Assembly (NCBI GenBank): GCA_028283625.1
Contig: JAPWKG010000026.1
Coordinates: 186,001-250,000, forward strand
Origin: Acidobacteriaceae bacterium
Lineage (GTDB): Bacteria; Acidobacteriota; Terriglobia; Terriglobales; Acidobacteriaceae
DNA: 64,000 bases
Reading direction: 5' to 3'
Below, piece after piece: positions 4,119 through 43,100 of this stretch (positions are counted from its first letter, which is position 1; every line of letters starts with the position of its first letter). The notes beneath the pieces were generated by a model that worked only from the letters and a program-made list of their open reading frames with translations, had not been told where the DNA came from and ran no database searches. A program made the translations under genes and the position numbers.

Positions 4119-4262
4119 ACATCCTCCAGGGGAAACGCATCCGTTTCCATGTATGGATTAGGGTAAGAGTGGTAGCAGTATCGACTGCACTCATCGGGTT
4201 GGATGCGTGTAACGCATCTGAAGCATAAAAGGATTCGAGCAACAGGCAGGAGAAGGACGTAC

Positions 4263-6152: not shown

Positions 6153-6222
6153 GCAACGCGCATCGTTTCGGGTAGGAAGGTGCATCCAAGAGCCGAGAGA
6201 GTCCGTACGGAGAACCCGCGAA

Positions 6223-9603
<3,381 letters not shown>

Positions 9604-9620
9604 GGGAACGAACGATTACG

Positions 9621-10832: not shown

Positions 10833-10871
10833 GCTCTTGAAGATTCGGAACCACGGAAAGGATTCATCCCG

Positions 10872-11606
10872 ATGGGACAGCAAATCGTAGACGCACTTAG
10901 CCAGTCGATGCACCGCGCAGTGGTGATGCTGGTCAGTTTTCTGCCAGGGCTTGTGGCCTTTGTCGTGGCAGTGGTGTTGTTGTGGATTCTGGGCGCGTTG
11001 TTGAGCGCGCTGGTGCATAAGGTGCTTACTGCGATCCACTTCGACGAACGCATGGGGAATCGCTCGGCCACGGAGTTTGCGCCAAGTACCTCGCCGACGC
11101 TGCTGCTTTCCCGCGGCGTCTTGTGGGTGTGCCTGTTTGTCGGAGTGGTGATCGGTATCTCGGCGTTCGGAGAGGCGTTTGCCAACTCAAACTTCTCCCT
11201 GGTGCTGTTGCCCTACTTTACGCACCTGATTGGAGCGGCGCTGATTTTGTTTTTCGGCTCGCTGGTGGCCAGATTCCTGGCGCGCAGTGTGCTGATCGGC
11301 TCAGTGAACGCGCAGCTGCAGTATGCCAGGTTTCTTTCGTTAGGCATCAAGTGGCTGGTGTTGGTGCTGGCTGCGGCGATGGCTCTGGATCATGTGGGCG
11401 TGGGTGGCTCGATCATCGATCTGGCCTTCGGAATTCTCTTTGGCGGCATTGTTCTGACGCTGTCGCTGGCGGTGGGACTCGGTTCGCGCGACCTGGTCTC
11501 GCGTTCCATTGAGAAGACCATGGAGAAGCCTGCAAACCCTGCCTCCGGAAGTGTCTCCCCGATCAATGAGGCTGATCCTTCAAGGCCGCGTCTGCGGCAT
11601 TTCTAG
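10872..11606 (+). CDS. Membrane protein with mechanosensitive-channel-type TM helices
   Basis: MGQQIVDALSQSMHRAVVMLVSFLPGLVAFVVAVVLLWILGALLSALVHKVL; several TM helices followed by AVGLGSRDLVSRSIE. Confidence 0.6.
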   Translation: MGQQIVDALSQSMHRAVVMLVSFLPGLVAFVVAVVLLWILGALLSALVHKVLTAIHFDERMGNRSATEFAPSTSPTLLLSRGVLWVCLFVGVVIGISAFGEAFANSNFSLVLLPYFTHLIGAALILFFGSLVARFLARSVLIGSVNAQLQYARFLSLGIKWLVLVLAAAMALDHVGVGGSIIDLAFGILFGGIVLTLSLAVGLGSRDLVSRSIEKTMEKPANPASGSVSPINEADPSRPRLRHF

Positions 11607-11633
11607 GCGGCGGCGCGCTATACTGCAGCCTGC

Positions 11634-11888
11634 ATGCAGCAGGAAGATATTTACGCGCAACTGACCTCGATCTTTCACGACCTCTTCGACGACGAATCCA
11701 TCGTGCTGTCGCCGAGCCTGACCGCCGCTGATGTTCCTGAGTGGGACTCGTTTAATCACATCAACCTGATTGTGGCGGTAGAAGCGCGATTTGGCATCAA
11801 GTTCCAGACCGCTGAACTGGAGTCAATGCAGACGGTCGGGCACCTGGTGGATCTGATTCAGAAAAAGCTGGTGGCTCAGGGGCGCTAG
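11634..11888 (+). CDS. Acyl carrier protein-like
   Basis: 84 aa; EWDSFNHINLIVAVEARFGIKF contains the D-S-F phosphopantetheine attachment context. Confidence 0.8.
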   Translation: MQQEDIYAQLTSIFHDLFDDESIVLSPSLTAADVPEWDSFNHINLIVAVEARFGIKFQTAELESMQTVGHLVDLIQKKLVAQGR

Positions 11889-11905
11889 CAGGAACTCAAG
11901 CAAAG

Positions 11906-11937
11906 AGGGCTTCGCCTGCACATTGCAGCGAAGCCCT
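11906..11937. terminator. Hairpin between convergent genes (ACP and TPR protein)
   Basis: agggcttcgc ... gcgaagccct with inner ctgca/tgcag stem, followed by ttct. Confidence 0.6.
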
Positions 11938-11957
11938 TTCTGTCTCTGCTGGCTGGT

Positions 11958-12266
11958 TTAGCGCAGTTCGTCTCGCATGGCGCTCATTTCGCTGGTGGCA
12001 TGCGCGTTCCCGGTGCGTTCGGCGGCAGTGAGGCCGGCGTCCAGCCGTTGCAGGGCCTCCTGAGGGCGTCCCATCTTGAGCAGAAGCTGTGCCGACATCT
12101 GGTAGGCCGGCACGTAATCCGGGTTCTTCTCGGTGGTGAGCAGGTATTCGGCGAGAGCTTCCTCATGGCGCTCCTCGGCGGCGTAGGCCATGGCCAGCCC
12201 GTAGCGGGCAAAGCTGTCGGCAGGGTTCATGCTGAGGATCTCGGTGAGTGCTGCGATCTTGTCCAT
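11958..12266 (-). CDS. Tetratricopeptide repeat protein
   Basis: MDKIAALTEILSMNPADSFARYGLAMAYAAEERHEEALAEYLLTTEKNPDYVPAYQMSAQLLLKMGRPQEALQRLDAGL, TPR pattern. Confidence 0.8.
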   Translation of the reverse strand: MDKIAALTEILSMNPADSFARYGLAMAYAAEERHEEALAEYLLTTEKNPDYVPAYQMSAQLLLKMGRPQEALQRLDAGLTAAERTGNAHATSEMSAMRDELR

Positions 12267-12359
12267 GAGACCTATTTTCTTCCCCTTCGCGGGAAAAGCC
12301 AACGAGGAGGCCGGCGGAGCCCTTTCCCGTTGAATCGAGGCGAGATTTAGAATAAAAGC

Positions 12360-12884
12360 ATGAACGATCCTGTAGTGTCGCGGACGGTTGCAGAGTCACA
12401 AGCAGAGCGCAGTGAGATTATCTTTCCGAACGATGTAAACCCGTTGGGGAACCTGTTCGGTGGGCGTTTAATGCAGTTCATCGATCTGGTGGGTGCGGTA
12501 GCAAGTGTGCGCCACTCCGGTGCGGTGACGGTGACGGCGAGCATGGATCACCTGGACTTTGTCAGCCCGGTGAAGGTGGGAGAGCTGCTGATCCTGAAGG
12601 CGAGCGTGAACCGCGCGTTCAAGACCTCGATGGAGGTCGGTGTGAAGGCGATGGTCGAGGATGTACTTGGCACGGGCAAGATGCGGCATGTGGCAACGGC
12701 GTATCTGACGTATGTTGCGGTCGATAAGCTGGGTAAGAAGATGGACGTGCCGGTGGCGGTGCCTGAGACGGAGCATCAGAAGCGGCGCTTTGCGGATGCC
12801 GCGGCGCGTAGGGAGATGCGTGCCGGGGAGATGTTGCGCAAGAAAGAGCTGCGCGCTACGTTGCCGCCGGAGTGGCACGTTTAA
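12360..12884 (+). CDS. Acyl-CoA thioesterase (hotdog fold, YciA/BACH-like)
   Basis: SEIIFPNDVNPLGNLFGGRLMQFIDLVGAVASVRHSGAVTVTASMDHLDFVSPVKVGEL. Confidence 0.85.
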   Translation: MNDPVVSRTVAESQAERSEIIFPNDVNPLGNLFGGRLMQFIDLVGAVASVRHSGAVTVTASMDHLDFVSPVKVGELLILKASVNRAFKTSMEVGVKAMVEDVLGTGKMRHVATAYLTYVAVDKLGKKMDVPVAVPETEHQKRRFADAAARREMRAGEMLRKKELRATLPPEWHV

Positions 12885-12916
12885 TCGCTGGTTTGAGAAG
12901 AGAACAGGAAGAGCGT

Positions 12917-13750
12917 ATGGGACACAGTGGACAGGGAATGCCGCAGGGGCCGATGCCGTTGCCGGGAATCGAATGTGTCGTTGCAGTGGGATCAGGCAAG
13001 GGCGGGGTGGGAAAGACCACCGTCGCGGTGAATACGGCGATTAGCCTGGCGAAGCTGGGCTACAAGGTCGGCTTGATCGATGCAGATATCTACGGGCCGA
13101 ACGTGCCCACGATGTTAGGCCTTACGCGCCAGCCTACGGTGCTGCCCGGCAATCGGATTGAGCCGCTGACGGCGCACGGCGTGAAGTTCATGTCGATTGG
13201 CCTGATCTCGCCCGGCGATAAGCCGATGGTGATGCGTGGCCCGATGCTGCACGGCATCATCCGGCAGTTTTTGCAACAGGTAGAGTGGGGCGAGCTGGAT
13301 TTCCTGATCGTCGATCTGCCGCCGGGAACGGGTGATGTGGTGATTTCCCTGGTGCAGACGGTTCCTCTTACAGGCGCGGTGGTGGTCAGTACGGGATCTT
13401 CCGTTGCGCTGGAAGACGCACGCAAGGCCTTGGAGATGTTTGGTCAGGTGAACGTCGAGGTCCTGGGGCTGGTGGAGAATATGAGCCAGATGACGTTACC
13501 GGATGGCACGGTTCTCGATATCTTTGGGGCCGGCGGTACGGAGCAGACGGCCAAGCAGTTCGGGCTCGCCTTTTTGGGTTCCATCGACATGGACCCGGAG
13601 GTGCGCCAGAACGGCGATCGCGGTATGCCCGCGGCGTTGGCTGGAGACGAGTCGGCTCGTGCGCAGGAGTTTCGCTCCATTGCGGCCAAGGTGGCGGAAC
13701 GCGCCAAAGCCGTGGCTGCCAAGAGCGAGGATGTGCTGGAGATTCTGTAA
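12917..13750 (+). CDS. mrp: Mrp/NBP35 family ATP-binding protein
   Basis: VVAVGSGKGGVGKTTVAVNTAISLAKLGYKVGLIDADIYGPNVPTMLG deviant Walker A; LIVDLPPGTGD. Confidence 0.9.
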   Translation: MGHSGQGMPQGPMPLPGIECVVAVGSGKGGVGKTTVAVNTAISLAKLGYKVGLIDADIYGPNVPTMLGLTRQPTVLPGNRIEPLTAHGVKFMSIGLISPGDKPMVMRGPMLHGIIRQFLQQVEWGELDFLIVDLPPGTGDVVISLVQTVPLTGAVVVSTGSSVALEDARKALEMFGQVNVEVLGLVENMSQMTLPDGTVLDIFGAGGTEQTAKQFGLAFLGSIDMDPEVRQNGDRGMPAALAGDESARAQEFRSIAAKVAERAKAVAAKSEDVLEIL

Positions 13751-13803
13751 GAAAGAGGACCGCTTGCGACCTTTGGCCGCGGCGGTTGTCTAATTGAGTT
13801 GCG

Positions 13804-14883
13804 ATGGCGAATGCAGGCACATTGACGGCGAGGCAGCGCGAGGTGCTGGTGGCGATTGTAGAGGACTACATCGCCACGGGAGAGCCAGTGAGCTCTGGTG
13901 CGGTGGCTCGTTCCAGCCGGATAGCCTCCGGGGCGGCAAGCCCTGCAACGATTCGCAACGAGATGGCGGCGTTGGTCGAGGCTGGTTTGCTGGAGCAGCC
14001 GCATACTTCGGCGGGGCGTGTACCTTCCGCTGCCGCGTTTCGGTTGTATGTTGAGGCGCTGAACGGAGGGATCGCAGCGCGCCTGCCTGGGTTGTCGCGC
14101 GCGGAGCTTGAGTCCCGGATTGATTTGGGGTTCGCTGGTGTGGCCGGCGGTCAGGCTTTGCTGGAGCGTACGTCGCAGGTGCTCGCCATGCTTTCGAGCG
14201 GGGTTGGTGTTGCGATGGGGGTAGCTCCTGCAACGGATCTGCTCGAACACGTGCATTTTTCGCGGCTTACACAGAATCGTGTTTTGGCGGTGCTGGTGAC
14301 GCGTGGCGGCATGGTGCGCGACCGGATGCTGGCACTCGAACGCGATCTCTCAAGCCTTGAGCTGGAGATGGCATCCAACTTTTTGAACGAGCACTTCCAC
14401 GGCTGGTCGCTCGACGCGGTGCGGTTGGAGTTGGCGCGGATGGTGGAGCGTGAGCGCAGCGACTACCAGAGAATGTTGAGCGCGGCACATGAGCTGTGGG
14501 CGCATGCGCTGCCGGCGAAGGTAATGCAGGCCGTCTTCGTGGAAGGCGTTGCGAACCTTGTCGGTGAGGGAGAGGATCGTGGGCATTTGCGCGCGGTTCT
14601 GGCCGCGCTGGAGGCGAAGGAACGCTTGGTCGATCTGCTGAACGCCTATGTCGATGCGCAGCAGGAGACGGTGCGCGTTGTCTTTGATTTGGAGCGTACC
14701 GCTCCGGAGATGGCCGGGCTGGTGCTGGTGGCGGCGCCCGCGCGGGTGGCCGGTGACAGCCTGGCGACCGTAGGGGTGATCGGACCGAAACGGATGCACT
14801 ACGAGAGCACGATGAATGCGGTGGGCTACATTGCCGGTTTGTTCGATCGTGTACTCGATATGGGACGTGCAGAACGGTTGTAG
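13804..14883 (+). CDS. hrcA: Heat-inducible transcription repressor HrcA
   Basis: LTARQREVLVAIVEDYIATGEPVSSGAVARSS...SPATIRNEMAALVEAGLLEQPHTSAGRVPS; IGPKRMHYESTMNAVGYIAGLFDRVL. Confidence 0.93.
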   Translation: MANAGTLTARQREVLVAIVEDYIATGEPVSSGAVARSSRIASGAASPATIRNEMAALVEAGLLEQPHTSAGRVPSAAAFRLYVEALNGGIAARLPGLSRAELESRIDLGFAGVAGGQALLERTSQVLAMLSSGVGVAMGVAPATDLLEHVHFSRLTQNRVLAVLVTRGGMVRDRMLALERDLSSLELEMASNFLNEHFHGWSLDAVRLELARMVERERSDYQRMLSAAHELWAHALPAKVMQAVFVEGVANLVGEGEDRGHLRAVLAALEAKERLVDLLNAYVDAQQETVRVVFDLERTAPEMAGLVLVAAPARVAGDSLATVGVIGPKRMHYESTMNAVGYIAGLFDRVLDMGRAERL

Positions 14884-14901
14884 CAAAAGGACGCAACGAC
14901 G

Positions 14902-15516
14902 ATGCGTGTCAGAGATTGGTTCGCGCAAAGAGCGCGAACGGCTGGAAAGGAAACAGAGATGAATACTCAGGAAGAAAAGAACGACGTGCACGAGGTTCCG
15001 GCAGCGGAACAGGAAGCAGCAGCCGTGGAAGCGGTCGCGGCCGAAGGAAGCCAGCTGACGGAGCTGGAACAGGTGAAGGGCGAGCGAGATGCTTTGCTGG
15101 ATCGCTTGGCTCGTTTGCAGGCGGAGTTTGATAATGCCCGCAAGCGCGAGGTGAAAGAGCGTCAGGACGCGCGCGATTACGCGGTACAGGGTACGGTAGA
15201 GCCATTCCTGAGCGTGATGGATAACTTTCAGCTTGCGTTGAAGTCCGGCGGATCTGCGGATCAACTGCGCATGGGTGTGGAGCTGATTCTGAAACAGATG
15301 GAAGATGCTTTGCGCGGTCTGAATGTGACAGCGGTTGATGCTGTCGGAGCAGAGTTCGATCCGCGTGTGCATGAGGCGCTCGGTTCCGAGGAGCGTGCGG
15401 ATGTGCCGGATCACCAGGTGATTGAAGAGGTTCGTCGCGGCTACAAACTGCGCGACAAGCTTCTGCGTCCTGCGCTGGTAAAGATTGCGACAAACTCGCA
15501 GCAGCGCGAAGCCTAA
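14902..15516 (+). CDS. grpE: Nucleotide exchange factor GrpE
   Basis: [45 protein letters not shown] ... [44 protein letters not shown]. Confidence 0.92.
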
Positions 15517-15562
15517 CAACAGTTCAACAGGCGCAAAGCCTGATTTTTGCAGGGAAAACGAG

Positions 15563-16708
15563 ATGGCTGCAACGATGAAGATGGATTATTACGAGGTTCT
15601 GGAAGTCGAGCGCACGGCGTCGGACACGGAGATCAAGACCGCGTATCGCAAGCTTGCGATGAAGTGGCATCCGGATCGCAATCCGAACAATCAAGATGCT
15701 GAAGAAAAGTTCAAGGAGTGCTCGGAGGCTTATGGCGTTCTGAGCGACTCCGAGAAGCGCGCAGCGTATGACCGTTACGGCCATGCAGGCGTGGGCGGTG
15801 CAGGCGGATTCGGCGGAGGAAGCCCCTTCGGACAGGGAGGGCCGTTCCAGCAGGGTGACCTGGGAGATATTTTCGGTGACCTCTTCGGCGAGATGTTCAA
15901 CATGGGCGGAGCTCGCGGTGGCCGTCCTTCACGGGCGCAGCGTGGCCGCGATATTCAGTACGAGCTGGTGCTGGAGTTTGAGGAAGCGGTCTTCGGTGTT
16001 CAGCGCGAGATCAAGATTCGGCGCGCGGAGACGTGCGAGGACTGCAGCGGATCAGGCTCGGAGAACGGAAAGCAACCGGAGACCTGCCAGCAGTGCGGCG
16101 GTCGGGGACAAATCCGTTCCCAGCAGGGTTTCTTTTCCGTGGCGCGTACCTGCCCGATCTGCTCCGGAACGGGGCAGGTGGTGAAGAATCCGTGCAAGAG
16201 CTGCCGGGGGGATGGTCGCACGCAGAAGGAACACACCATACAGGTAAAGGTTCCGGCAGGCGTTGAGAATGATACGCGCATCCGTTACGGCGGCGAGGGA
16301 GATGCGGGTAAGTTCGGCGGGCCCAGTGGCGATCTCTACGTTCTGCTCGAGGTGAAGTCGCATAAGTTCTTTGAGCGCGAAGGCGATGATCTGCATTGCG
16401 TTATGCCGATCAGCTTCCCGCAGGCTTCGCTAGGAACGGAGCTTGAGATTGAAACGCTGCACGGCGTTGAGATGATCAAAATCCCGGAGGGAACGCAGAG
16501 CGGTAAGGAGTTTGTGCTGCGGGGCAAGGGGGTGCCGCACTTGAACGCGCATGGCAAGGGTGACCTTGTCGTAGAAGTTCGGGTGCAGACGCCGAAGCTC
16601 AACAAGCAGCAGAAAGAGCTGATGCGCCAGTTGCAGGAGACGCTGACGGTTGAGAATAAGCCTCACTCGCGGGGGCTCTTCGAAAAAATGAAGGAGATGT
16701 TCAGCTAA
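15563..16708 (+). CDS. dnaJ: Molecular chaperone DnaJ
   Basis: [39 protein letters not shown] motif, G/F region and CxxCxGxG zinc-binding repeats. Confidence 0.95.
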
Positions 16709-16727
16709 TCAAGCGTCATCTCAAGGG

Positions 16728-16779
16728 ACACAAAGGACGAGGGCGGAGTCTGTACAGACTCCGCCCTCGTCCTTTGTGT
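16728..16779. repeat. 52-bp perfect palindrome between convergent dnaJ and rsmE (possible bidirectional terminator)
   Basis: acacaaaggacgagggcggagtctgt|acagactccgccctcgtcctttgtgt; the arms are exact reverse complements with no spacer. Confidence 0.95.
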
Positions 16780-16791
16780 GGCGTATGCCGG

Positions 16792-17529
16792 TTAGAGGAA
16801 TGCTCCGCAAACCGAGAGCGCAGCAATGACAGCGGTTTCCGCGCGCAGAATGCGCGGTCCCAACGTGACGGGTTGCCATTGATTTTGCTGGAAGAGTTGC
16901 ATCTCGTCCTGTGTCCAGCCGCCTTCCGGTCCGACAGCGAAAGCGAGAGCGCGATTTTGCTCTGCATCGGGTGCGTTGCGCAATTGCTGTGCTTCCAGTG
17001 CTGCTCGTAACGTGTTCTCTTCTTCTGTTTCGGCCAGCAGAAGCTTGTGTGGAGCCAGCGGGAGCTTGAGTGCGGCGCTTAGCGGCATAGGGTCATCGAT
17101 GTCGACGAGATCAGAGCGTCGCGATTGTTTGGCGGCTTCAAGCGTAATACGCCGCCAGCGTTCAACCCGCTTTGCTGCGGCATGAGCAAGATGCTTCTCG
17201 GTCCTACGCGCCAGCACTGGTGTGATGCGAGCAGCGCCAAGCTCTGTTGCTTTCTCCAGACCCCATTCGTAGTGATCGAATTTGATCACGGCCAGCAGCA
17301 GGTGAACGGGCATGGCGGCATCTGTTTCCAGCTGCTCACCAAGTTCGAAGGTGACTGCAGTTTCGGTTACGTCTGAGATCGTTGCGCGATAGAGGAAACC
17401 ACCGGCGACGACATCGTACTGTTGTCCGGCCTGCGCACGGAGAACGCGTGCAAGGTGGTGAGCCTGCTCGCCGGTGAGCGATGCGGTGGTGTCGTTGTAG
17501 TGGTCTGCGATAAAACGTCGGCGTGTCAT
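16792..17529 (-). CDS. rsmE: 16S rRNA (uracil(1498)-N(3))-methyltransferase RsmE
   Basis: MTRRRFIADHYNDTTASLTGEQAHHLARVLRAQAGQQYDVV ... AVGPEGGWTQDEMQLFQQNQWQPVTLGPRILRAETAVIAAL. Confidence 0.9.
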   Translation of the reverse strand: MTRRRFIADHYNDTTASLTGEQAHHLARVLRAQAGQQYDVVAGGFLYRATISDVTETAVTFELGEQLETDAAMPVHLLLAVIKFDHYEWGLEKATELGAARITPVLARRTEKHLAHAAAKRVERWRRITLEAAKQSRRSDLVDIDDPMPLSAALKLPLAPHKLLLAETEEENTLRAALEAQQLRNAPDAEQNRALAFAVGPEGGWTQDEMQLFQQNQWQPVTLGPRILRAETAVIAALSVCGAFL

Positions 17530-17579
17530 GCAACGACAGGATACATTGCGAAAGGTGCATGAATACTGGCGAAAAACAC

Positions 17580-17608
17580 TTCGGGGAGCGCTTCTCGCGC
17601 TCCCCGAA
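17580..17608 (-). terminator. Intrinsic terminator-like hairpin, best read on the minus strand
   Basis: ttcggggagcgc-ttctc-gcgctccccgaa (12-bp perfect stem, 5-nt loop); minus-strand readout continues gtgtttttc. Confidence 0.55.
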
Positions 17609-17814
17609 TGTGTTGCCTTTATTTGTTGCTTTGCCTGGTTAGCGTTTGCCTGCGCTCCCATGATCGATGTGTTTCGCATCGACGCTGCTCTCATTCGCAT
17701 GAGGCAACTATCGAAGGTATAGATTTTGTGCGCACCAGAGTCAAGAGAAAAGTGGAAAAGTGAACGAGGATTTTTTGTGGCGCTCGATGAGCGGAACCCG
17801 TTTGGAGCGAAGCA

Positions 17815-19119
17815 TTACGGAAGAGGATTGAGTTGATTGCGCGTCGCTCGGCGAGCAAGCGCCATCAGTATGCCGAGCAGTAGCAGCGCGCCGAGATACA
17901 TATAGCTTTGCAATAGGTTCCAACCTCGGTAGTGCCAGAGCATATTCGTAGCGGAGAGGGAGTTGAGCATCAGGAATGCAGCAAGCCCTGTGAGCCAAGG
18001 ACGTTTATCCTGTTGTGCGCCATAGGCGAACCAGAGCCACGCGAAGATGCCGAGCACAATGCCGTAATGGTGTTCCCATGCCATGGGGGAAGAGGCAACG
18101 GAGACAAGGCCAATCGCGGCAAGATCGGCACTGCTTCCTTTCAGCTTGCCCCAAGGAAAGAAGAGTGCGAGGCAAAGCAGCGTTAGCGCTGTCGTCACGG
18201 TGAGGCGATAGACCCACGGGATGTACGGTGTGTACACGTAGGGCGTGTACCCAATGTTTTCACCGTTGAAGATCATGCGATTGACGGTGCCGAACATGGA
18301 TTGGTTGCCGTAATGGGACTGCGCTTTATGCGAGAGCGAGGCGAGGACTTTCAGATAATCGAGGTTGTTGTGCAGGCCGAAGACCGCAACCGCGAGAGCG
18401 AAGAGCACGGCGCCGGAGACAAGGAACGCAATGGCCGCGTTCCAGCGCTTGCGCATCAGCATCCAGATGAGGATCAGGACGTACTGCGGTTTGACGCAAG
18501 TGAGGATGCAAGCGGTGATACCGGAAGCCCTTTCGTTGCCGTTTGTCCAGAAGACGAGCAGCAGAGCGAAGCCGAAGGAGAGAAACGTTTGCGCGTTGCC
18601 GAGAGAAAAACCCTTCAAGAGCGGGTAGCAGAAAAGCACTGCGAGGCAAACGGCAACGATGGCGGGCCAGCGCAAGGACTCCCCGCGTTTTGCGAGAAGA
18701 CGACGTCCCATGACGAGAGCACACACTGCGATTCCCAACACGGCAAGAAAGCTGCCGAGGGCGAGCAGGTGCAGCATTGTGGGATCGGCGACGCCAAGTT
18801 TGCGCAGTGCGACGAGGGGGAGAAGACTCGCGAGAGAGTAGATCAGCGTGTCATAGAGAGGCGCGAAGTAGAGCGGCTTCGTGGGGAAGTCGTGGAAGTA
18901 GTCGAGCGACTTCATCATCGGTAGCCAGGAGTCTGTCCACTGATGCAGGTGCCAAAGGTTAGAGACATCACGATGAATGTTGCCAGGGTTGCCGAGCCCA
19001 GCAACACGACAAAGAAACCACTGCGCAAAGTTCGCGGTGAAAAGAGAACCGAGCACAAAGAGCAGGAGCCGCATCGAGTGCGTGCGGTCTGCAGAAGACC
19101 TCGTTGCCATGCTGGACAT
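17815..19119 (-). CDS. Membrane glycosyltransferase, GT87/DUF2029-like
   Basis: 434 aa polytopic protein; GITACILTCVKPQYVLILIWMLMRKRW and SPMAWEHHYGIVLGIFAWLWF motifs typical of GT87. Confidence 0.75.
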   Translation of the reverse strand: MSSMATRSSADRTHSMRLLLFVLGSLFTANFAQWFLCRVAGLGNPGNIHRDVSNLWHLHQWTDSWLPMMKSLDYFHDFPTKPLYFAPLYDTLIYSLASLLPLVALRKLGVADPTMLHLLALGSFLAVLGIAVCALVMGRRLLAKRGESLRWPAIVAVCLAVLFCYPLLKGFSLGNAQTFLSFGFALLLVFWTNGNERASGITACILTCVKPQYVLILIWMLMRKRWNAAIAFLVSGAVLFALAVAVFGLHNNLDYLKVLASLSHKAQSHYGNQSMFGTVNRMIFNGENIGYTPYVYTPYIPWVYRLTVTTALTLLCLALFFPWGKLKGSSADLAAIGLVSVASSPMAWEHHYGIVLGIFAWLWFAYGAQQDKRPWLTGLAAFLMLNSLSATNMLWHYRGWNLLQSYMYLGALLLLGILMALARRATRNQLNPLP

Positions 19120-19251
19120 GGGCTGATTATAGGTCTGAGCTGGAAACGGACGAGAGAATATCGCTAAGACGGTCTGCGTGCGCGTTGGGGGTGTGCTGTG
19201 TGCAGGTAGAGTGCGTCCCCGGTGCGACGCACTCTCAGTTGACCGGATTGC

Positions 19252-20766
19252 CTAACATTCAATGATGTTTAGTGCCAGACCAGCAAGTGAGGTTTCCTTG
19301 TAGCGCGATTGCATGTCCATGCCGGTGCGGTACATCGTGTCGATGACCTGATCGAGCGAAAGTTTATGCGGTCCTGGGTCATGCATGGCGAGGCGAGCGG
19401 CGTTGACAGCTTTGACCGCTCCCATGCCGTTGCGTTCAATACAGGGAATTTGGACGAGTCCGCCGATGGGGTCGCAGGTCATGCCAAGGTTATGCTCCAT
19501 GGCGATCTCAGCAGCGTGCTCTACAGCGTTGTTGTCTCCACCGAGGGCTGCGACGAGTCCTCCAGCGGCCATCGAGCAGGCTACACCAACCTCGCCCTGG
19601 CAGCCGACTTCGGCGCCGGAAATGGACGCGTTTTCTTTGTAGAGAATGCCGATAGCTGCCGCGGTAAAGAAGTAACGCAGGAGACCGGCACGCTTTTCCG
19701 GCTCGGTCAGTGTTGTGGAGCCATGATGCAGGAAATAGTAGGCGATGGCGGGTACGACACCGGCAGCACCATTTGTCGGAGCGGTGACAACACGACCGCC
19801 GGCGGCGTTCTCTTCATTGACGGCCATGGCGACGAGCGTCACGCTGTCGAGAGGCGCGAGAGGGTCACGCGCCATGCCTTCACGGTCGAGCCTTTTGAGG
19901 CGGGCTGCAAGGCCAGGAGCGCGGCGGCGTACGTTCAGGCCACCGGGCAGCGTGCCTTCCGTCGCAATGCCACGCTCGATGCAATCGCTCATCGCCTGCC
20001 AGAGCGTGAGCACGGCTGCTTCAATCTGCTCGCGTGGTGAGAGGGCGTGAATGTCGATGACGTCGTGCAGTTCCGGGCGCTCTGCGGAAACGATGCGGTC
20101 AAGGCGGCGCACGATAGTGGGATCGCTGAGAAGAGCCACTTCATTGGCACACATGAGCTCAGCGATGGTGAGCTCGTGGCTCTGTGCCGTGCGGAGCAGC
20201 TCTGCGGCAGAGGAGAACGGATACGGTACGGTTCGTTCAAACGACGCGGTGGGGTGCGCGAACTCTTCGTCTGAGAGGATGAAGCCGCCACCGATCGAGT
20301 AATAGGTCTGGTTGTAGAGCATCGATCCGTCTGCGGAAAATGCGGTCAGGGTCATGCCGTTGGGGTGCGTGGCGATTTCGCCCGGATACATCTGCTCGCG
20401 ATGGAGGAGCAGATGCTGTTGTGGATCGAAGTGGAGGTCGTGCTCGCCCATGAGCAGGAGCCTGCGCTCGTCGCGTATGCGCGCGAGCATGGCTTCGATG
20501 CGATCCAGTGGAACGGTATCAGGAGATTCGCCGAGCAGTCCGAGCAGGACAGCACGATCTGTGCCGTGCCCGATACCGGTCAGGGCAAGAGAGCCATACA
20601 GGTCGACGCGTAGCGAGACCACAGACGAGAGCGGATGCGTCGTGCTGAGCTCGCGCACAAAGCGCAGTGCGGCGCGCATGGGACCAACCGTGTGCGATGA
20701 GCTGGGACCGATACCTATTTTGAAAAGTTCAAAGAGACTGGTTTGCAAAGAGCCTCCAAAGCCCAT
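19252..20766 (-). CDS. sdaA: L-serine ammonia-lyase
   Basis: SLFELFKIGIGPSSSHTVGPMRAALRFV; GSVTLVAMAVNEENAAGGRVVTAPTNGAAGVVPA; ENASISGAEVGCQGEVGVACSMAAGGL; GGLVQIPCIERN. Confidence 0.95.
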   Translation of the reverse strand: MGFGGSLQTSLFELFKIGIGPSSSHTVGPMRAALRFVRELSTTHPLSSVVSLRVDLYGSLALTGIGHGTDRAVLLGLLGESPDTVPLDRIEAMLARIRDERRLLLMGEHDLHFDPQQHLLLHREQMYPGEIATHPNGMTLTAFSADGSMLYNQTYYSIGGGFILSDEEFAHPTASFERTVPYPFSSAAELLRTAQSHELTIAELMCANEVALLSDPTIVRRLDRIVSAERPELHDVIDIHALSPREQIEAAVLTLWQAMSDCIERGIATEGTLPGGLNVRRRAPGLAARLKRLDREGMARDPLAPLDSVTLVAMAVNEENAAGGRVVTAPTNGAAGVVPAIAYYFLHHGSTTLTEPEKRAGLLRYFFTAAAIGILYKENASISGAEVGCQGEVGVACSMAAGGLVAALGGDNNAVEHAAEIAMEHNLGMTCDPIGGLVQIPCIERNGMGAVKAVNAARLAMHDPGPHKLSLDQVIDTMYRTGMDMQSRYKETSLAGLALNIIEC

Positions 20767-20806
20767 GCTATTGTAAGCACTATCGGCCCCCAGAAAATTT
20801 AAAAAG

Positions 20807-21982
20807 GTGTCTCCTATGACAGAGCATGCTCAGGCGACAGGAGCAGGGATGAATGTGCGCCATACGCTCGCGTTGCCTTCGTCTCAGCATCAGATTGATG
20901 GTTTACAGGTCGTACGTGCAAGTGCCGTAATCGTCGTTGCATGGGGCCATGCTGGTCTGCCCTTTTTTACGCCCAGGACCGGATTGTTGCCGGACCTGGG
21001 CATCTTCGGTGTGGACCTGTTTTTTGTTCTCAGCGGCTTCATCCTTTCGTTGGGAATTCTCCGCTCAAAGCGTTCCCCAGGAATGGATGCCGCGCAGCAC
21101 TTCTTCCTGCGCCGTCTTATACGGATTTACCCGATTTACTGGATCTTTGCCGGGGTGGGATTGCTCATCCAGGCGCATCGCCATGCACCATATTTCTCCC
21201 ACTTTTGGGCGAGCCTGTTGTTGGCGCCCTTTCCGGATTACCCGAATCTCTTTTTGGTCGTTGACTTCAGCTGGACACTCGTTTTTGAGATGTTCTTTTA
21301 TCTGCTGCTTGCCGCGATACAGTTTCTGACGGTGCGTAGAGCTGTCGTCAGTTCGATCGGGATCCTGTGTCTTCTCGTTGCCGTTGGCGAGGCGCTGCCT
21401 ACGATATGCAAGCCTTTTGCTGTCGTAGTGTTCAACCCAATTCTGCTTGAGTTCGTTCTCGGCATGCTGATCGCGGTTTCTTACAAAGCATTGGGTGCGC
21501 AAAAGATGGCCGGACGCATTCTTTTCTGCCTTGGCGTGGCGCTTGCGATTTTTTTGCGAATAAAGCTTTTTGTGACTCCTTCGATGCAGGCCATCCTTCT
21601 GGACAAAGGCGTGTTTACGCAGGTAGCTACCTGGGGAATCGCTGCGATGTTGGTTGTCGGTGGAGTCGTGTTCTGGTCGCCTCGCTGCGATGGGCGAGTG
21701 GCGAGGATTGCAGTAATTCTGGGCAATGCTTCGTACTCGGCCTATCTCGCATCAGGCGTCGTCATCCTTTACTCCACCATGATGCTCAAGAAAGTGTTCG
21801 GCGCATCTCGCTTTGACGCATTGGCTCCGAGATTTCCAGCGCAGGTCGGGATCGTTTTGGCGATTCTTTGCGTTGGCTGGCTTTGTTATCAGTTTGTTGA
21901 ATGGCCTCTGTTGCATCGAATGCAGCGCTGGTTGAAGAGAGAACGTAGCGCATCGTTTACGGAAGTTGCTGAGTGCAGTTGA
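20807..21982 (+). CDS. Acyltransferase 3 (OafA/YrhL-like) family membrane protein
   Basis: IDGLQVVRASAVIVVAWGHAG ... LGIFGVDLFFVLSGFILSLG ... FFLRRLIRIYPIYWIF. Confidence 0.9.
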   Translation: MSPMTEHAQATGAGMNVRHTLALPSSQHQIDGLQVVRASAVIVVAWGHAGLPFFTPRTGLLPDLGIFGVDLFFVLSGFILSLGILRSKRSPGMDAAQHFFLRRLIRIYPIYWIFAGVGLLIQAHRHAPYFSHFWASLLLAPFPDYPNLFLVVDFSWTLVFEMFFYLLLAAIQFLTVRRAVVSSIGILCLLVAVGEALPTICKPFAVVVFNPILLEFVLGMLIAVSYKALGAQKMAGRILFCLGVALAIFLRIKLFVTPSMQAILLDKGVFTQVATWGIAAMLVVGGVVFWSPRCDGRVARIAVILGNASYSAYLASGVVILYSTMMLKKVFGASRFDALAPRFPAQVGIVLAILCVGWLCYQFVEWPLLHRMQRWLKRERSASFTEVAECS

Positions 21983-22823
21983 TGTAGGCGGCGGCTGCGC
22001 TGAAGCGTACCGGTTGCTTGTCGTCCTCAAGTAGAGGCGCGAGCGCTGTGGCGTAGCGTCGATCATGTGTCTTACCGAGAAAACGAGCGCCTGTGGCCCG
22101 AACGCCCTGGTCTTTGTCGCTCAGCGCATCCATCAGATAGTCGCGAGAAGCTGGTGTGTGGGCTTCGGCAAGCAGCTCGAGTGCAATTGAGCGGGAGGTA
22201 TCGGTACCGCTTTTGCGGATATATTCGATTGCCATGATGGAGAAGCCGAAGGGGCCGAGCAGCATGCCGGCGCCTTGGGTGACACCGAGCTTGGCCATCG
22301 TGGCTGGGCTGTGCATGGTGGAGGACATCTGATGCTCGGCGCCGTGGATGAGGGTGGGCTTGGTCTTGCGGTCGCCGGATACGATAGCGTCAAGAATGTC
22401 TTCTCCGCTGTGATCGTGGAAGTCGCGCCACAGGATTACCGCTGCTGTGTAAACGACCTGGGGTTCCGGGTCATCCAGTAGTTTGTGTGCGTTCGGGAGT
22501 AGCCGCGAGGCTTTGGCATGGCCGGCGGCGACGAGGGCTGCGGAGCGGACGTCAAGATCCGGATCCTTCATGGCCTGAGCGATGAGCCGGTTCGCGCGGG
22601 CGCTTTGTCCGAGATCGGAAAGTGCAGAAAGCGCCTGTGTTCTGACCTCCGGGCGCTTGTCCTCCAGTACAGCATCGGAGAGCATCTTCCATGCCTCTTG
22701 CTGCCGTTGGGCGAGCGTTTCAGGCTTGGCTGGTGCTGGGGAGGCAGGCTGGTCCTGTGCCTGGAGCGAGAGGGCGAAAGCGGTAAAGAGCGCGGCAGCC
22801 GTGAGGCGCAGTGTGGCTTGCAT
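21957..22823 (-). CDS. HEAT-repeat domain protein with signal peptide
   Basis: MQATLRLTAAALFTAFALSLQAQ signal; EVRTQALSALSDLG, DLDVRSAALVAAGH, DKDQGVRATGARFLGK repeats. Confidence 0.8.
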   Translation of the reverse strand: MQATLRLTAAALFTAFALSLQAQDQPASPAPAKPETLAQRQQEAWKMLSDAVLEDKRPEVRTQALSALSDLGQSARANRLIAQAMKDPDLDVRSAALVAAGHAKASRLLPNAHKLLDDPEPQVVYTAAVILWRDFHDHSGEDILDAIVSGDRKTKPTLIHGAEHQMSSTMHSPATMAKLGVTQGAGMLLGPFGFSIMAIEYIRKSGTDTSRSIALELLAEAHTPASRDYLMDALSDKDQGVRATGARFLGKTHDRRYATALAPLLEDDKQPVRFSAAAAYINCTQQLP

Positions 22824-22962
22824 AAGGTGACGTTCTCCGAAGCGAGGTGAGGCTCCTACGCTAGGACGTTTTCAGGCAACACGGAGATGTATGCCGGTGC
22901 GTTGCTGGTGCTAGACTGGCGAAACTTTACGGCCTCAATGGCAGCAACAGGCGGTTTCCACG

Positions 22963-24546
22963 ATGCTCTTTAAAACGCGCAGCGCGGCTGTGTATGGGAT
23001 CGACGCGCACCTGATCGATGTGGAAGTGGACTTTGTGACGCACGGCGGGGAAGAGTCCTCCTGGTCCATGGTTGGGCTGCCGGACGCGGCGGTGCGTGAG
23101 AGCCGCGATCGTGTGCGTTCGGCGATCAAAAACTCCGGTTTCGAGATGCCGGCGACTCGGATCACAATCAACCTGGCGCCTGCCGATCTGAAAAAAGAAG
23201 GCTCAGGGTTCGATCTGCCCATGGCGGTGGGCATTCTGGGAGCTTATGGCGCGTTGGCAAATCGGGAGCTCCATGACGTTGTGTTGGTGGGGGAGCTGGG
23301 ATTAGATGGGGCACTGCGCGCCGTGCAGGGAATGTTGCCGATTGCCATGGCGGCGAAATCTGCAGGGCTACGTCACCTGATTGTTCCTGCAAGCAATGCG
23401 CGTGAAGCGGCGGTGGTGGAGGGGCTGCAGGTGTGGCCCGTGCGCTCTTTGCTGGAGGTACGCGAGCTGCTGAACAGTATGGTGCAGGGGCAGGGTGTGC
23501 TGGCTCAACCGCTGCGGGTGGATTCGCGGGCAATGCTCTTTACACAGGACGATAGTGCGCCCGACTTTTGCGATGTACGCGGCCAGCACGTTGCCAAACG
23601 AGCGCTGGAGGTTGCGGCCGCAGGCGGGCATAACATTCTGATGATTGGGCCCCCGGGCTCGGGCAAGACGATGCTGGCCAAGCGGCTGCCGTCGATTCTG
23701 GCTCCTCTGCAGTTTGACGAGGCGTTGGAGACGACGAAGATTCATTCGGTTGCGGGCGTGCTGAATCGCGAGGATGGAATGGTGACGCACCGGCCCTTTC
23801 GTGCGCCGCACCATACGATCTCCGACGCAGGCCTGATTGGCGGAGGTGCTATGCCGCGCCCGGGCGAGGTTTCGCTGGCGCACAACGGGGTGCTGTTTCT
23901 CGATGAGCTGCCGGAGTTTCCGCGCAACGTGCTGGAGGTGATGCGGCAACCGTTGGAGGACGGCCATGTGACGATTGCGCGGGCTGCGATGAGCCTTACC
24001 TTTCCTGCGCGCTTCATGCTCGCGGCAGCGATGAATCCTTGCCCGTGCGGCTATTACAACGACAAGAGCCGCGAGTGCATGTGCACGCCTCCGATGATTC
24101 AACGGTATGTCTCGAAGGTAAGTGGTCCGCTGTTGGATCGTATCGATATCCATATCGAAGTGCCGGCTGTGCAATACAAGGAGTTACGCGGTGCGCAGGC
24201 TGCAGAGGGTTCGTCAGAGATCCGGCAGCGTGTGTTGCAGGCCCGTGAGCGTCAGAGAGCTCGCTTTGCGTCCGTTTCGCAGCCCGGAGTGAAGCGCGCG
24301 AGGAGAATCTTTTCGAACGCACAGATGTCGACGGGCGAAATTCGCACATTTTGTGAATTAGGTCCAGATGCGGAGCGTCTGCTTGAACGCGCAATGCAAC
24401 AGCAGGGGCTGAGTGCACGTGCACATGACCGTATTTTGAAGGTTGCACGCACGATTGCGGACCTGGAAGGGGCTCCTACAATTTCTTTGCCGCACATTGC
24501 AGAAGCTGTGCAATACCGGACGTTAGACCGAAGTTATTGGTCGTAA
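22963..24546 (+). CDS. comM: YifB/ComM family Mg chelatase-like AAA ATPase
   Basis: [24 protein letters not shown] ... [29 protein letters not shown] ... [34 protein letters not shown] ... [11 protein letters not shown]. Confidence 0.93.
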
Positions 24547-24694
24547 TCCTCCGGGGTGGGGTTTGCATGAGGTGCCGGAAGGTGTATTCCTCAAAGAGAG
24601 AGTTGTTTTTTGACCTGGTGTGATCGAGTGAGCCGCGGGAGTGTCCTGCGTGCGAGAAAATAGAGAGGTCAAGACAGCAGGAAAGGTGGAGAGG

Positions 24695-25987
24695 ATGTCC
24701 GGAGTGCAAGCTGCGGCGGGCAAGAAACGCCCACGCGTGATTGTTGTAGGAGCAGGGTTTGGTGGAATTCGTGCAGCACAGGCGTTAGGAAAAATGCCGG
24801 TCGATGTGACCGTCATTGATCGAAGAAATCACCATACGTTTCAACCTTTGCTCTATCAAGTTGCGCTGGCGGTACTTTCGCCCGGAGATATTGCGCAGCC
24901 TATTCGGCAGATTTTGCGCCATCACAGCAATATCGAAGTCACCATGGACGAAGTTGTGCGCTTCGATCTGGACGCGAAGCGTGTGTATCTGAAGTCGGAT
25001 GCGGTGATGGTGTACGACTACCTGGTCATTGCCACGGGCTCAACGCACAGCTACTTCGGCCATGATGATTGGGCGGACAAAGCTCCTGGGTTGAAGACAG
25101 TCGAAGATGCTACGGAGATTCGCCGCCGTGTTCTGCTGGCATTTGAACTGGCCGAACGGCAGATGCTGGAGGTTGGTTCTCATCCTCCGCTGAACTTTGT
25201 CGTCATTGGCGGCGGACCAACAGGCGTGGAGCTTGCGGGCGCGATCTCAGATATTTCCCGCCTCTACATGACGAAGGATTTTCGTCACATCGATCCGAGT
25301 GAAGCGAATGTGCTGATTCTGGAAGGTTCACCACACATTCTGGGAGCGTATCCTCCGGATTTGCAGAAGAAGGCGATTGAGCAGCTCACGAAGCTGAATG
25401 TACGCACCCGCACGGGCAAGCACGTAACCGAGATCGGCGAAGGGTATGTGATGCTGGGCGAAGAGCGCATTGAGAGCGTATGTACGCTGTGGGCCGCAGG
25501 TGTGCAGGCCTCGCCGCTGGGCAAGATGCTGGGCTTCCCGGTGGACCGGAAAGGCTCGGTCCTGGTCGATCAGTACCTGAACCCTCCGGGACATCCCGAG
25601 GTCTTTATCTGTGGCGATCTGGCGCACGTGGAGCAGGACGGAAAACAGGTTCCAGGAGTAGCGCAGCCCGCGATGCAGATGGGAACCTATGCCGCAAAGC
25701 GTATCGGACAGCTCGTAGCAGGCCGGGACCAGGGGCAGAAGGGCTTCCGCTACTTCGACAAGGGAGATATGGCCACGATCGGCCGTAAGGCTGCTGTAGC
25801 CCGCATTGCGTGGCCGTTCAAGGCCAACTGGTCAGGCTTCATGGCCTGGATCGTCTGGCTGGTGGTACATGTCTTCTTCCTGATCGGCTTCCGGAACCGC
25901 TTCTCGGTGTTCCGGCAGTGGACATATACGTACATCGGCAAGCAGGAAGGCGTTCGTCTGATTGTTGGCTCGCATGATCTGCCGGGC
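24695..25987 (+). CDS. NAD(P)/FAD-dependent oxidoreductase (NDH-2 type), 3' end replaced at the chimeric junction
   Basis: RVIVVGAGFGGIRAAQALGKMPVDVTVIDRRNHHTFQPLLYQVA; C-terminal FRNRFSVFRQWTYTYIGKQEGVRLIVGSHDLPG runs into foreign sequence. Confidence 0.9.
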
Positions 25988-26000
25988 CGGTGGCGTACTC
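25980..26000. other. Probable chimeric join between Acidobacteriota-like and Rhizobiales-like sequence
   Basis: ndh reading frame loses family similarity after GSHDLPG; the next gene lacks its 5' end; gene repertoire changes here from one lineage to the other. Confidence 0.75.
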
Positions 26001-26463
26001 GGCTGCCGCCGCAACGCCGGCCGTCGTTCAGGCCTATTGCCCTCAGGTCGTGATGCTCGAGCAGAACGCCGTTTATCAGGTTTATGCCAAGGGCGGCCAG
26101 GACGATCCGAGCAAGCTCCTCTATCAGGCCTCCTTTAATGACGTGACGCGTCAATGCACGGCAAACGAAACGACGATGACCATCAACGTCGTCGCCCAGG
26201 GCCGTATCGTCCAGGGACCGGCCGGCACGCCGGGTTCGGTCACCCTGCCGGTCACCGTCGAAGTGGTCGATGGCGACAACGTCATCTATTCCCAGAAGGT
26301 GGCTTTCCCGGTCAACATGCCGGCCGGCGGTTCGCAGTTCATCTTCTCCAAGGCCGATGTGCAGATCCCGAACGCCCAGGGCGGCGCCTCCCGCTTCACC
26401 CGCGTCCGCCTCGGCTTCGACAGCACCCCGGCCAAGCCGATCAAAAAGGGCAAGCGCGCCTGA
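25990..26463 (+). CDS. Conserved rhizobial-type hypothetical (likely exported/lipoprotein), 5'-truncated at the junction
   Basis: ATPAVVQAYCPQVVMLEQNAVYQVYAKGGQDDPSKLLYQASFNDVTRQCTANETTMTINVVAQGRI; expected signal/lipobox N-terminus is missing. Confidence 0.75.
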   Translation: MAYSAAAATPAVVQAYCPQVVMLEQNAVYQVYAKGGQDDPSKLLYQASFNDVTRQCTANETTMTINVVAQGRIVQGPAGTPGSVTLPVTVEVVDGDNVIYSQKVAFPVNMPAGGSQFIFSKADVQIPNAQGGASRFTRVRLGFDSTPAKPIKKGKRA

Positions 26464-26628: not shown

Positions 26629-29411
26629 ATGGCTGACACAGCGATTTCGGCAGGCGCAAGGCGGCGCCTCAGGCTCTGCACGGCGATGGTCTCGCTGGTG
26701 TGGATGATGCCGGCTGTCGCCTCGGCACAGTCGACCTGGACCGGCGCCTCCGGCAATGATTTCTCCAATGGTGCCAACTGGACGCCGTCTGCGCCCGGTA
26801 CATCCGATGCCGCTGCGATCGGCTCCGGTGCGCCCACCGTTTCCACCAATGCCACGGTCAATTCGGTCAATGTCACCGGCGGCACGCTGCATGTCGATGC
26901 CGATCTCTCCGCATCCGGCGGCACCAGCCTCTCCGATCCCGGCCGCATCGAAATCTCCACCGGCGGGCAACTGACCTCAAATGTCGAGATGACCGGCGGC
27001 AATCTCGCCAATTCGGGCACGCTCGACGGCACGCTTCACATGACCGGCGGCGAGACCGTCAATGACGGCACGATCACGGCTAAGACCACGCTCGACGACG
27101 GCAAGCTCACCAACAATTTCGTCGTCAGCGACGTGGATGTCGCGGCCGCCGCCGAATTCGTCAACAATTCCGGCGCGACGGCTGGAAACGTCACCAATGC
27201 CGGCGCCGCGTCGAATGCCGGCACGATCGCCTCGCTCACCAATACCGGCGGCTCCTTCACCAACAATAGCGGCGGCACGATCACCGGCAATACGGTGATC
27301 ACCGGTGGCACGGTGACCAATAATTTCACCGTCTCGGCAGTGGATGTCATGGCGGCGGCGATCTTCGTCAACAATACCGGCGCGACGGCCGGCGCCATCA
27401 CCAATGCCGGCAACACATCGAATGCCGGCACGATCGCCTCTCTCACCAATACCGGCGGTTCCTTCACCAACAATAGCGGCGGCACGATCACCGGCAATAC
27501 GGTGATTTCGGGCGGCACGGTGACCAACAATTTCACCGTCTCGGCGGTTGATGTGATGGCGGCGGCGATCTTCGTCAACAATACCGGCGCAACGGCCGGT
27601 GCCGTCACCAATGCGGGCAACGCGTCGAATGCCGGCACGATCGCCTCGCTCGCCAACACAGGCGGCACCTTCACCAACAATGGCGGCGGCACGGTTACGG
27701 GCAACACGGTGATCACCGGCGGCACGGTGGTCAACAATTTTGCCGTCACCGATGTGGATGTTGCTGCCGCTGCCGCCTTCGTCAACAATTCGGGCGCGAC
27801 GGCCGGCAATGTCCTGAATGCCGGGACGTCCTCCAATGCCGGCACCATCGCCTCGCTCACCAATACCGGCGGAACCTTCGCCAATTCCGGCACCATTACC
27901 GGCGCTGCGAGCGTCACGGGTGGCACGCTGGTCAATGACGGTTCGGTCGGCGGCGCAATCGATATCGGCACCGACGGCGTGCTCGCCGGCTCGGGCGCGA
28001 TCGGCGGTCTCACCGTTGGTTCGGGCGGCACGTTTGCGCCGGGCCGGGCATCGCGACCGTTGCGGTCAACGGCAATGTCACCTTCGAAAAGGGCTCGACC
28101 TATCAGGTGGAAACCGACGCGACCGGCATTTCCGACCGCCTGGATGCGGCCGGTAAAGTGACGATCGACGGCGGCACGGTGGAAATTCTGGCCGGCGCCG
28201 GCACCTATGCGCTCGATACCACCTACACGATCCTGACCGGTGACGGTGTTGCCGGCAAATTCGACGACGTGACCTCGGATCTCGCCTTCCTCTCGCCGAT
28301 CCTCACCTATGATCCGACATCGATCACCCTCGATCTCTATCGCAACGATGTCGATTTCGCCGACGTCGCCAGGACCGCCAATACCCGCGCCACGGCCAAT
28401 GCCGTTCAGTCGCTCGGCACCAGGGATTCGGTTTTCCTCGGCGTGCTGCCGCTCAGTGCAGACGGCGCGCGTGATGCATTCTCGCAATTGAGCGGCGAAC
28501 TGCACGCTTCGCTGAAAAGCCAGCTGCTGCAGCAGGCAGGCATTGCCCGGGAAGTGGTGATCGAGCGGATGAAGGGCGATGTTCCGACCACCGAGACCGA
28601 TGGCGGCGCAAGCATCTGGATGACCGGTATCGCCGCAACGGACCACATCGATGGCGACGGCAATGCGGCCGGCATAAACGGCCATGTGGCAGGACTGTTT
28701 GCCGGCATCGATAGCGACGTGTCGGATCACTGGCGTGTAGGTGGCCTCCTTGGCTACACCAACGCCTCGGCAGGTCGCGATGCCGATTGGGACAGTTACC
28801 ACGCCGGTCTGTATGCGTCGGCGGAATGGGGCGCGCTCAACTTCACCGGTGGGGCGATCTATTCGAAAAACGAGATCTCGACCACACGCAATCTCGCCTT
28901 TGGCACGTTCGAGGATGACCTGAAGGCCGATTATTCCAGCGCCACCCGCCAGGTCTTTGCCGATCTCGGCTGGCGCGAGAAGCTCGGCCCGGTAACGCTC
29001 GAACCCTTCGCAAACCTCGCCTACGTCAATCTCGACACGAACGGTTTTCACGAGAAGGGCGGCGCGGCGGCCCTGTCAGGCAGTGGCGGCACGGATGATG
29101 TGACGTTGACGACGCTCGGCCTCAGATGGTCGGCGGATATCGGCAGCACCGATCTGCCGGCAAGCTTTTCAGGCACGCTCGGCTGGCGCCACGCGATCGG
29201 CGACCTGACACCGTCGTCGCGTTTTGCATTTTCGACCGGCAGTCCCTTCATCATCGAAGGCGTTTCGCTGCCCCGCGATACGGCGGTCGTGGAAGCGTCG
29301 CTGTCGGCAAAGGTCACAAGGACAGCGCGGGTCAAACTCACCTATTCCGGCGAATTCGCCAATTCCTTCGCAAGCCATGCTGCGAAGGCAAGCCTCGTCG
29401 TCGATTTCTGA
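26629..29411 (+). pseudogene. Autotransporter outer-membrane beta-barrel protein with repeat-rich passenger; frameshift at about 28045
   Basis: Passenger of repeated NTGGSFTNNSGGTITGNTVITGG; continues in a second frame as GIATVAVNGNVTFEKGSTYQVETD...ILTGDGVAGKFDDV...; C-terminal barrel ends ...AKASLVVDF. Confidence 0.85.
27112..27900 (+). repeat. 207-bp (69-aa) tandem repeat, about 3.8 units, in autotransporter passenger
   Basis: Equivalent NNF codons at 27112, 27319, 27526 and 27733, spaced exactly 207 bp. Confidence 0.95.
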
Positions 29412-40156: not shown

Positions 40157-40193
40157 TAACATCCTCTCTGTCGAGTGGGTGAGGGGCGTGGCA

Positions 40194-43100
40194 TGAAATT
40201 CAACAAGCTGCGCCTCGTCGGGTTCAAGTCCTTCGTCGAGCCGACGGAATTCATCATCGAGCGCGGCCTGACCGGTGTGGTCGGGCCGAATGGCTGCGGC
40301 AAGTCCAATCTTGTCGAAGCGCTTCGCTGGGTGATGGGCGAAAACTCCTACAAGAACATGCGCGCGTCCGGCATGGACGACGTCATCTTTTCCGGTTCCG
40401 GCAACCGCCCGGCGCGCAACACCGCCGAAGTCGGGCTTTATCTCGATAATTTCGATCATACCGCCCCCGCCGTCTTCAACGATGCCGACGAGATCCAGGT
40501 CACCCGCCGCATCGAGCGCGAGAACGGCTCCGTCTACCGCATCAATGGCAAGGAAAGCCGCGCCAAGGACGTGCAGCTTCTGTTTGCCGATGCCTCCACC
40601 GGCGCCCGCTCGCCCTCCATGGTGGGGCAGGGCCGCATCGGTGAGTTGATCAATGCCAAGCCGCAGGCCCGTCGGCAGCTGCTCGAAGAGGCGGCCGGCA
40701 TTTCTGGCCTGCATTCGCGCCGCCACGAGGCCGAGCTTCGCCTGCGCGCCGCCGAAACCAATCTCGAACGGCTGGAAGACGTCGTCGTTCAGCTGGAAAG
40801 CCAGATCGAGAGCCTGAAACGCCAGGCCCGCCAGGCCAACCGCTTCAAGGCGCTGTCGGCCGATATCCGCGCCCGCGACGCGATGCTTTTGCATATCCGC
40901 TGGGTCGAGGCCGAACAGGCAGAGCTTGAGGCACAGACCGCGCTCAACCAGATCACCAACGTGGTTGCCGAAAAAGCGCAGGCGCAGATGGAAGCCGCCA
41001 AGAACCAGGCGATTTCCAGCCTGAAATTGCCGGAACTGCGCGAGGACGAAGCCAAGGCCGGTGCCGCCCTGCAACGCCTGCAGATCGCCCGCAGCCAGCT
41101 TGAAGAAGAAGCCGGTCGCCTGCTGAAACGCCGCGACGAGCTGACCCGCCGGCTTGCCCAGCTGGCCGAAGACATTCGCCGCGAGGAACAGCTCGCCGCC
41201 GACAATACGAGTTTTCTCGCCAAGCTGGACGAGGAAGAGGCCGAACTCAACGACATGCTGGCCGATAGCGGTGCCGAAAGCGCCGATCTGCACGAGGCTT
41301 TCGAGGCGGCCGGCGCGACGCTTGCTGAGAGCGAGCAATTGCTGGCGGCCATTACCGGCGAACGCGCCGAGGCTGCTGCCGGCCGCAACCAGCTGGAACG
41401 CCTGATCCGCGACCTTGCAGAGCGCCGCCAGCGCCTCGACCGCCAGCGGCAGGACGCGGCAGCCGAACTCGATGCCGTCACCGGCCGGCTCGCAACGCTG
41501 GACGATCCGGCCGAAAAGGCCGAACTGGTCGAAGCCGCCGAGATCGGCCTCGAAGATGCGACCGCCGCCGCCGAAGATGCCGAATCTGCCCTTGCCGCCA
41601 CCCGCGCCGGGGAACTTGCCGCCCGCCGTCCGCTGGAAGATGCAAGGACGGCGCTGAACGGCTTGCAGACCGAGGCCCGCACCATCTCGAAAATGCTGGC
41701 CGCCGGCGCCACCTCCGGCGATTTCGTGCCGGTGGCAGAAATGGTCCATGTCGAACGCGGTTACGAGGCAGCCCTTGGTGCAGCCCTCGGTGACGATCTG
41801 GAAAGCCCGGTCGATGCCGCAGCTCCCACTTATTGGGCGATGAACGGTGATCCTTCGGCTGACCCCCGCCTGCCGGATGGTGTTGAGCCGCTGTCTTCCC
41901 GCGTCACCGCCCCGCCGGAACTTGCCCGCCGTCTCGCCCAGATCGGCATCGTCTCGGTGATAAGGCCGCGGCCCTGATGGCGTCGCTCAAGCCCGGCCAG
42001 CGGCTGGTGACCAAACAAGGCGCCGTTTATCGTTGGGATGGCCATGTCACCGGCTCCGAAGCGCCGGGTGCCGCAGCGCTCAGGCTTTCCCAGAAGAACC
42101 GCCTCTCCGAACTCGAAGCCGAGATCGACGAGGCCCGTGATGTGCTTTCCGAATGCGAAAGCCTGCTGGCCGATGCGCTCGCCGAAATCGCCTCCAGCGA
42201 GCGCACGCTCTCCGATGCCCGCGACCGGGTGAGGTTAGCCACCCGCCAGGTTAGCGATGCCCGCGAGGCGCTGGCCGCGGCCGAACGCGCATCCGGCGAT
42301 CTGATGCGCCGCCGCGATGTCGTGTCCGAAGCGCTGAGCCAGGTCGATGGGCAGATCGAGGACATCGAGGTCCAGGGCGAAAACGCCCGGATCGAACTCG
42401 AAAACGCCCCCGATATTTCCGATCTCGATACCCGTCTGCTGAACCAGCAGGCGACGGTCGCGACCGATCGCGGCCGTCTGGCCGAAGCCCGCGCCAGCTA
42501 TGAGGGCCTGAGCCGCGAGCTGGAAGCCCGCAAGCGCCGCATCGCCGCCATTGCCCAGGAGCGGTCTTCCTGGAAGGCCCGCGCCGACAGCGCCGCCCGG
42601 CATATCGAAAGCCTGCGCGAACGCGAGGAAGAGGCGCGCGACGAGATCGTCGAGCTGGAGGCCGCCCCCGAAGAGGTGGACGATCGCCGCCGCAACCTGC
42701 TCTCCGAATTGCAGAAGGCGGAGGAAGCCCGCCGCAATGCCGCCGACCAGCTGGCAATTGCCGAAACCCGCCAGCGCGAGGCCGACCAGAAGGCGGCGAC
42801 CGCGCTGTCCGAACTCGCCGACGTGCGCGAAAAGCGCGGCCGTGCCGAGGAGCGTCTCGTTTCCGCTGCCGAAAAACGCCACGAAAGCGAACAGCGCATC
42901 CGCGAGGCATTGAATGTCTCCCCGCCGGAAGTGCTGCGCCTCACCGGCCTTCAGCCCGGCCAGCCGCTGCCGGATATCCGCACCATCGAGCGTGACGTCG
43001 ATCGCCTGAAGATGGAGCGCGAGCGCCTGGGCGCCGTCAATCTGCGCGCCGATGAGGAGCAGAAGGAGCTTTCCGACAAGCTCAATACCCTGACCCGCGA

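Follow-up and report, generated by a model that had tools for sequence, protein, structure and literature searches.

Introduction

Chimeric reads are documented in nanopore sequencing (PMC6156371), and chimeric contigs are documented for metagenome assemblers working on short, long or hybrid reads (PMC11261854). A contig of a metagenome-assembled genome that is an interspecies chimera is characterized by an abrupt join of unrelated genomes in coding sequence and by a composition step, and the bin that contains it by several such contigs and duplicate loci. The second described system to be considered is the genomic island or integrative element, in which a foreign block adjoins host DNA.

Here we analyzed a stretch of 64,000 nucleotides (the window), corresponding to bases 186,001-250,000 of the 264,497-bp contig C4 of an Acidobacteriaceae bin. 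The bin comprises 3.007 Mb in 31 contigs and is 84.8% complete and 1.82% contaminated. C4 shares with interspecies chimeric contigs the abrupt join within coding sequence and the composition step, and its bin shares the several affected contigs and the duplicate loci; no difference from this type of system was found, the comparison being by sequence and not by reads. Like a genomic island, C4 has a foreign block adjoining host DNA. Unlike an island, it has no integrase, no attachment repeats and no second boundary, and the cargo consists of core genes in donor order. We conclude that the contig is almost certainly a chimera that arose during sequencing or assembly and not by gene transfer.

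Results

The join lies inside two truncated genes

The gene for a type II NADH dehydrogenase (NDH-2; Pyr_redox_2 and NDH2_C) occupies positions 24,641-25,987 on the forward strand and lacks its 3' end. The listed open reading frame starts at 24,641, and homology is seen only from about 24,695. The frame reads ...GVRLIVGSHDLPG to 25,987 and then continues as RWRTRLPPQ... until a stop at 26,053. In seven congener genes examined, the residue directly after LPG is W (7/7) versus R in the window, and the C-terminal 18-31 residues that follow LPG in the congeners are missing. A second NDH-2-like gene is located on the same contig (C4:40,112-41,242), with 68% DNA and 64% protein identity.

Translation of the frame that is open from 25,990 gives VAYSAAAATPAVVQAYCPQVVMLEQ..., which is the body of a Rhizobiaceae lipoprotein with about 74-85% identity to its closest relatives. 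This gene (25,990-26,463, forward strand) has lost its signal peptide and lipobox. All 51 relatives are alphaproteobacterial records, the best of them in Rhizobium/Neorhizobium, and they have intact N-termini (e.g. VFGKISRGVLAVSLVAALASCNSSS...); the roughly 40 residues with the lipobox are absent from the window. Upstream, the rhizobial frame is closed by a TGA at 25,975-25,977, and the sequence common to both partners is therefore at most 13 bp (25,978-25,990).

Homology to congener DNA stops by 25,990, past which no match was found in 24 congeners. Rhizobial homology starts at 26,003, with no rhizobial match upstream of it. The join was accordingly placed at 25,978-26,003, with host DNA to about 25,987 and rhizobial DNA from 25,988-26,003. 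It was not found in relatives of either partner in the congener and rhizobial comparisons. No run of N and no direct repeat of at least 8 bp common to both sides was present at the join; inverted matches over it reached no more than 8 bp, which is chance level. Among the proteins nearest the join there was no integrase, transposase or other mobility gene, and no integrase family occurred among the proteins scanned. No tRNA is located at the join; the only tRNA of the window, at 51,047, lies within conserved rhizobial gene order. A search of phage records for a phage link at the join gave no match. The preliminary description of this DNA had reported an abrupt join in two truncated genes, with NDH-2 cut after ...RLIVGSHDLPG, at a boundary lacking integrase, transposase, tRNA and direct repeat. 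The truncation of NDH-2 and of the rhizobial lipoprotein gene agrees with that report, and so do the protein, tRNA and repeat checks at the boundary.

The two sides of the join differ in origin

The host part of C4 in the window extends over positions 1-25,987. Four congeners contain blocks that match positions 5,990-25,980, and C4 carries host-type 4-mers throughout before the join. These sequence matches assign the left half to the bin's own genus. The genes on the 3' side of NDH-2 in congeners are, in order, one for a small protein, one for a branched-chain aminotransferase (ilvE) and one resembling marC, after which comes an rRNA operon; the names ilvE and marC are our own reading of the proteins. 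Both of these named NDH-2 neighbours are absent from the bin, and the native continuation of the NDH-2 locus was therefore not recovered. Elsewhere on this side, the treS-maltokinase gene and a second host gene leave and re-enter frame relative to the congeners (window 5,500-5,840 and 6,950-7,080), and these frame losses are probably sequencing indels.

The Rhizobium-type chromosome segment occupies positions 26,003-64,000 of the window and runs on to the contig end, 52.5 kb altogether. Colinearity with the chromosomes of Rhizobium smilacinae, R. wenxiniae and relatives extends over this whole length, with an identity of about 70-87%, and is broken only by small local differences. The segment has core chromosomal genes only, among them ccrM, DciA/DUF721, DsbA, smc, ppdK and tRNA-Gln. 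The genes past the join had been described as rhizobial on the basis of ccrM, DUF721 and DsbA-smc-ppdK, and the colinearity bears this out. The rhizobial smc (40,193-43,647, forward strand) contains a frameshift near 41,956 that splits it; an intact smc of the host is located on contig C25. A rhizobial autotransporter gene at 26,629-29,408 contains, at 27,060-27,935, an array of tandem repeats with a unit of about 207 bp. Its reading frame shifts at about 28,040. The block was also considered as plasmid-borne. This was rejected; no plasmid record covered 80% of the 25 kb tested, and the best matches were multi-megabase replicons of Shinella and Sinorhizobium.

Composition changes at the same place. 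GC skew drops at 26 kb from about +0.11 to about -0.06, and the 4-mer log-ratio flips sign at 26 kb and stays flipped to the contig end. A tetranucleotide profile had been proposed as a check of the join, and 4-mer composition does switch there. Another proposed check, that the remaining halves of the cut genes might occur on another contig, gave a negative outcome: in addition to the absent ilvE and marC, a search of 1.66 Mb of bin sequence did not recover the 10 kb that natively lie upstream of the rhizobial segment.

Similar joins occur on four other contigs of the bin

The 4-mer scan took in C4 and C16 in full and the two ends of every one of the 31 contigs. Within this sequence it revealed five blocks of clearly deviant 4-mers, each reaching a contig end, on C2, C4, C10, C14 and C16. 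On C2, Rhizobiaceae DNA occupies 1-11,611 and host DNA follows from 11,609, with TonB_C and HGSNAT_cat genes cut. On C16, rhizobial DNA extends from about 245,970 to the contig end; here a host pro-kumamolisin-type protease gene enters a periplasmic binding protein gene that lacks its signal peptide, so that both genes are cut. The first ~12,150 bases of C14 are phage DNA with tail, lysis and helicase families (PHROGs), and the genes cut are those of a PadR regulator and a phage DNA helicase. A plasmid search with this block yielded no match. The block at C10:1-9,520 has deviant 4-mers, and its conserved genes match both rhizobia and congeners. Ethanolamine ammonia-lyase genes lie in this block, and an FGE-sulfatase gene is cut.

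Two of the joins have a second copy of the adjoining host locus within the bin. Bases 9,520-11,488 of C10 recur at C18:5,720-7,460 with 98.8-100% identity, and bases 11,609-13,277 of C2 recur at C16:1,667-1 with 94% identity. In both pairs the copies match up to the breakpoint and are wholly different past it. As read from these sequences, the C10 and C2 joins are contradicted by the second host-locus copy. The C2/C16 pair, at 94%, could represent two strains, and this is harder to reconcile with the near-identical C10/C18 pair. Unmerged contig-end overlaps at 82-99% were also observed (C12/C1, C12/C23, C10/C26 and C27/C30), consistent with noise or a mixture of strains in the assembly.

Discussion

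For C4, sequence comparison establishes where each side comes from, the colinearity with Rhizobium chromosomes and the truncation of both genes. Misassembly or chimerism had been put forward as the simplest reading of the join, and this is strongly supported by the native rhizobial stretch and the four similar joins in the bin. It is the rest of the bin that marks the join as an artefact, two of these four additional joins having a second host-locus copy that continues differently. C4 to about 211,988 (212 kb) derives from the bin's own genus, and the remainder to 264,497 from a Rhizobium/Neorhizobium-type chromosome, presumably out of the same sample. The two are joined bluntly, each within an unrelated gene.

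Granted an artefact, the physical cause was probably a chimeric long read, in which two molecules were ligated or read as one, and which the assembler may have accepted at low coverage. An automatic count gave 6 frame changes in conserved genes in 42 kb on the right (one of them in smc) and 0 on the left. Error rate was rejected as a discriminator of the two halves, as on inspection the two left-hand genes mentioned above also lose and regain frame. Indels on both sides of the join, together with the imperfect contig-end overlaps (82-99%), suggest a noisy long-read assembly. Chimeric reads would fit since the joins are blunt and share no k-mer.

The artefact could also have arisen by another route, either a de Bruijn-graph join via a shared k-mer or a join made during scaffolding or gap closing. 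This we regard as possible but rather unlikely. In its favour, chimeric contigs are produced by short-, long- and hybrid-read assemblers alike (PMC11261854). Against it, the overlap at the C4 join is at most 13 bp, and on C2 the rhizobial match extends to 11,611, with the host copy beginning at 11,609. There is also no N run at the C4 join, and the indels on either side of it point to long reads.

A real and very recent transfer would have joined 52 kb or more of Rhizobium chromosome to the host chromosome within NDH-2 by illegitimate recombination (end-joining), with no mobile element involved. We consider this extremely improbable. The loss of the cut NDH-2 would be covered by the second NDH-2-like gene at C4:40,112-41,242, which speaks for such an event. 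Against it, only a single boundary is visible, the block reaching the contig end. What the block carries is core chromosome that keeps the gene order and composition of the donor. The lack of an integrase family among the scanned proteins, and of a tRNA or repeat at the join, also speaks against transfer, and the rhizobial smc is redundant with the intact host gene on C25. Furthermore, four other contigs of the bin are joined in the same manner to different kinds of DNA, and duplicate host loci contradict two of these joins. Transfer via a mobile element or att site was rejected, the join being devoid of tRNA, mobility family and repeat. Horizontal transfer is not needed to explain the C4 join.

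For the chimera reading, the consequences are those of data hygiene. The bin passes the usual measure (84.8% / 1.8%), yet at least three of its contigs join rhizobial to host DNA, and the same bin additionally contains one phage join (C14) and the C10 join. Studies of gene content or gene transfer that make use of this bin would assign a rhizobial ccrM, a second smc and ppdK to the wrong organism.
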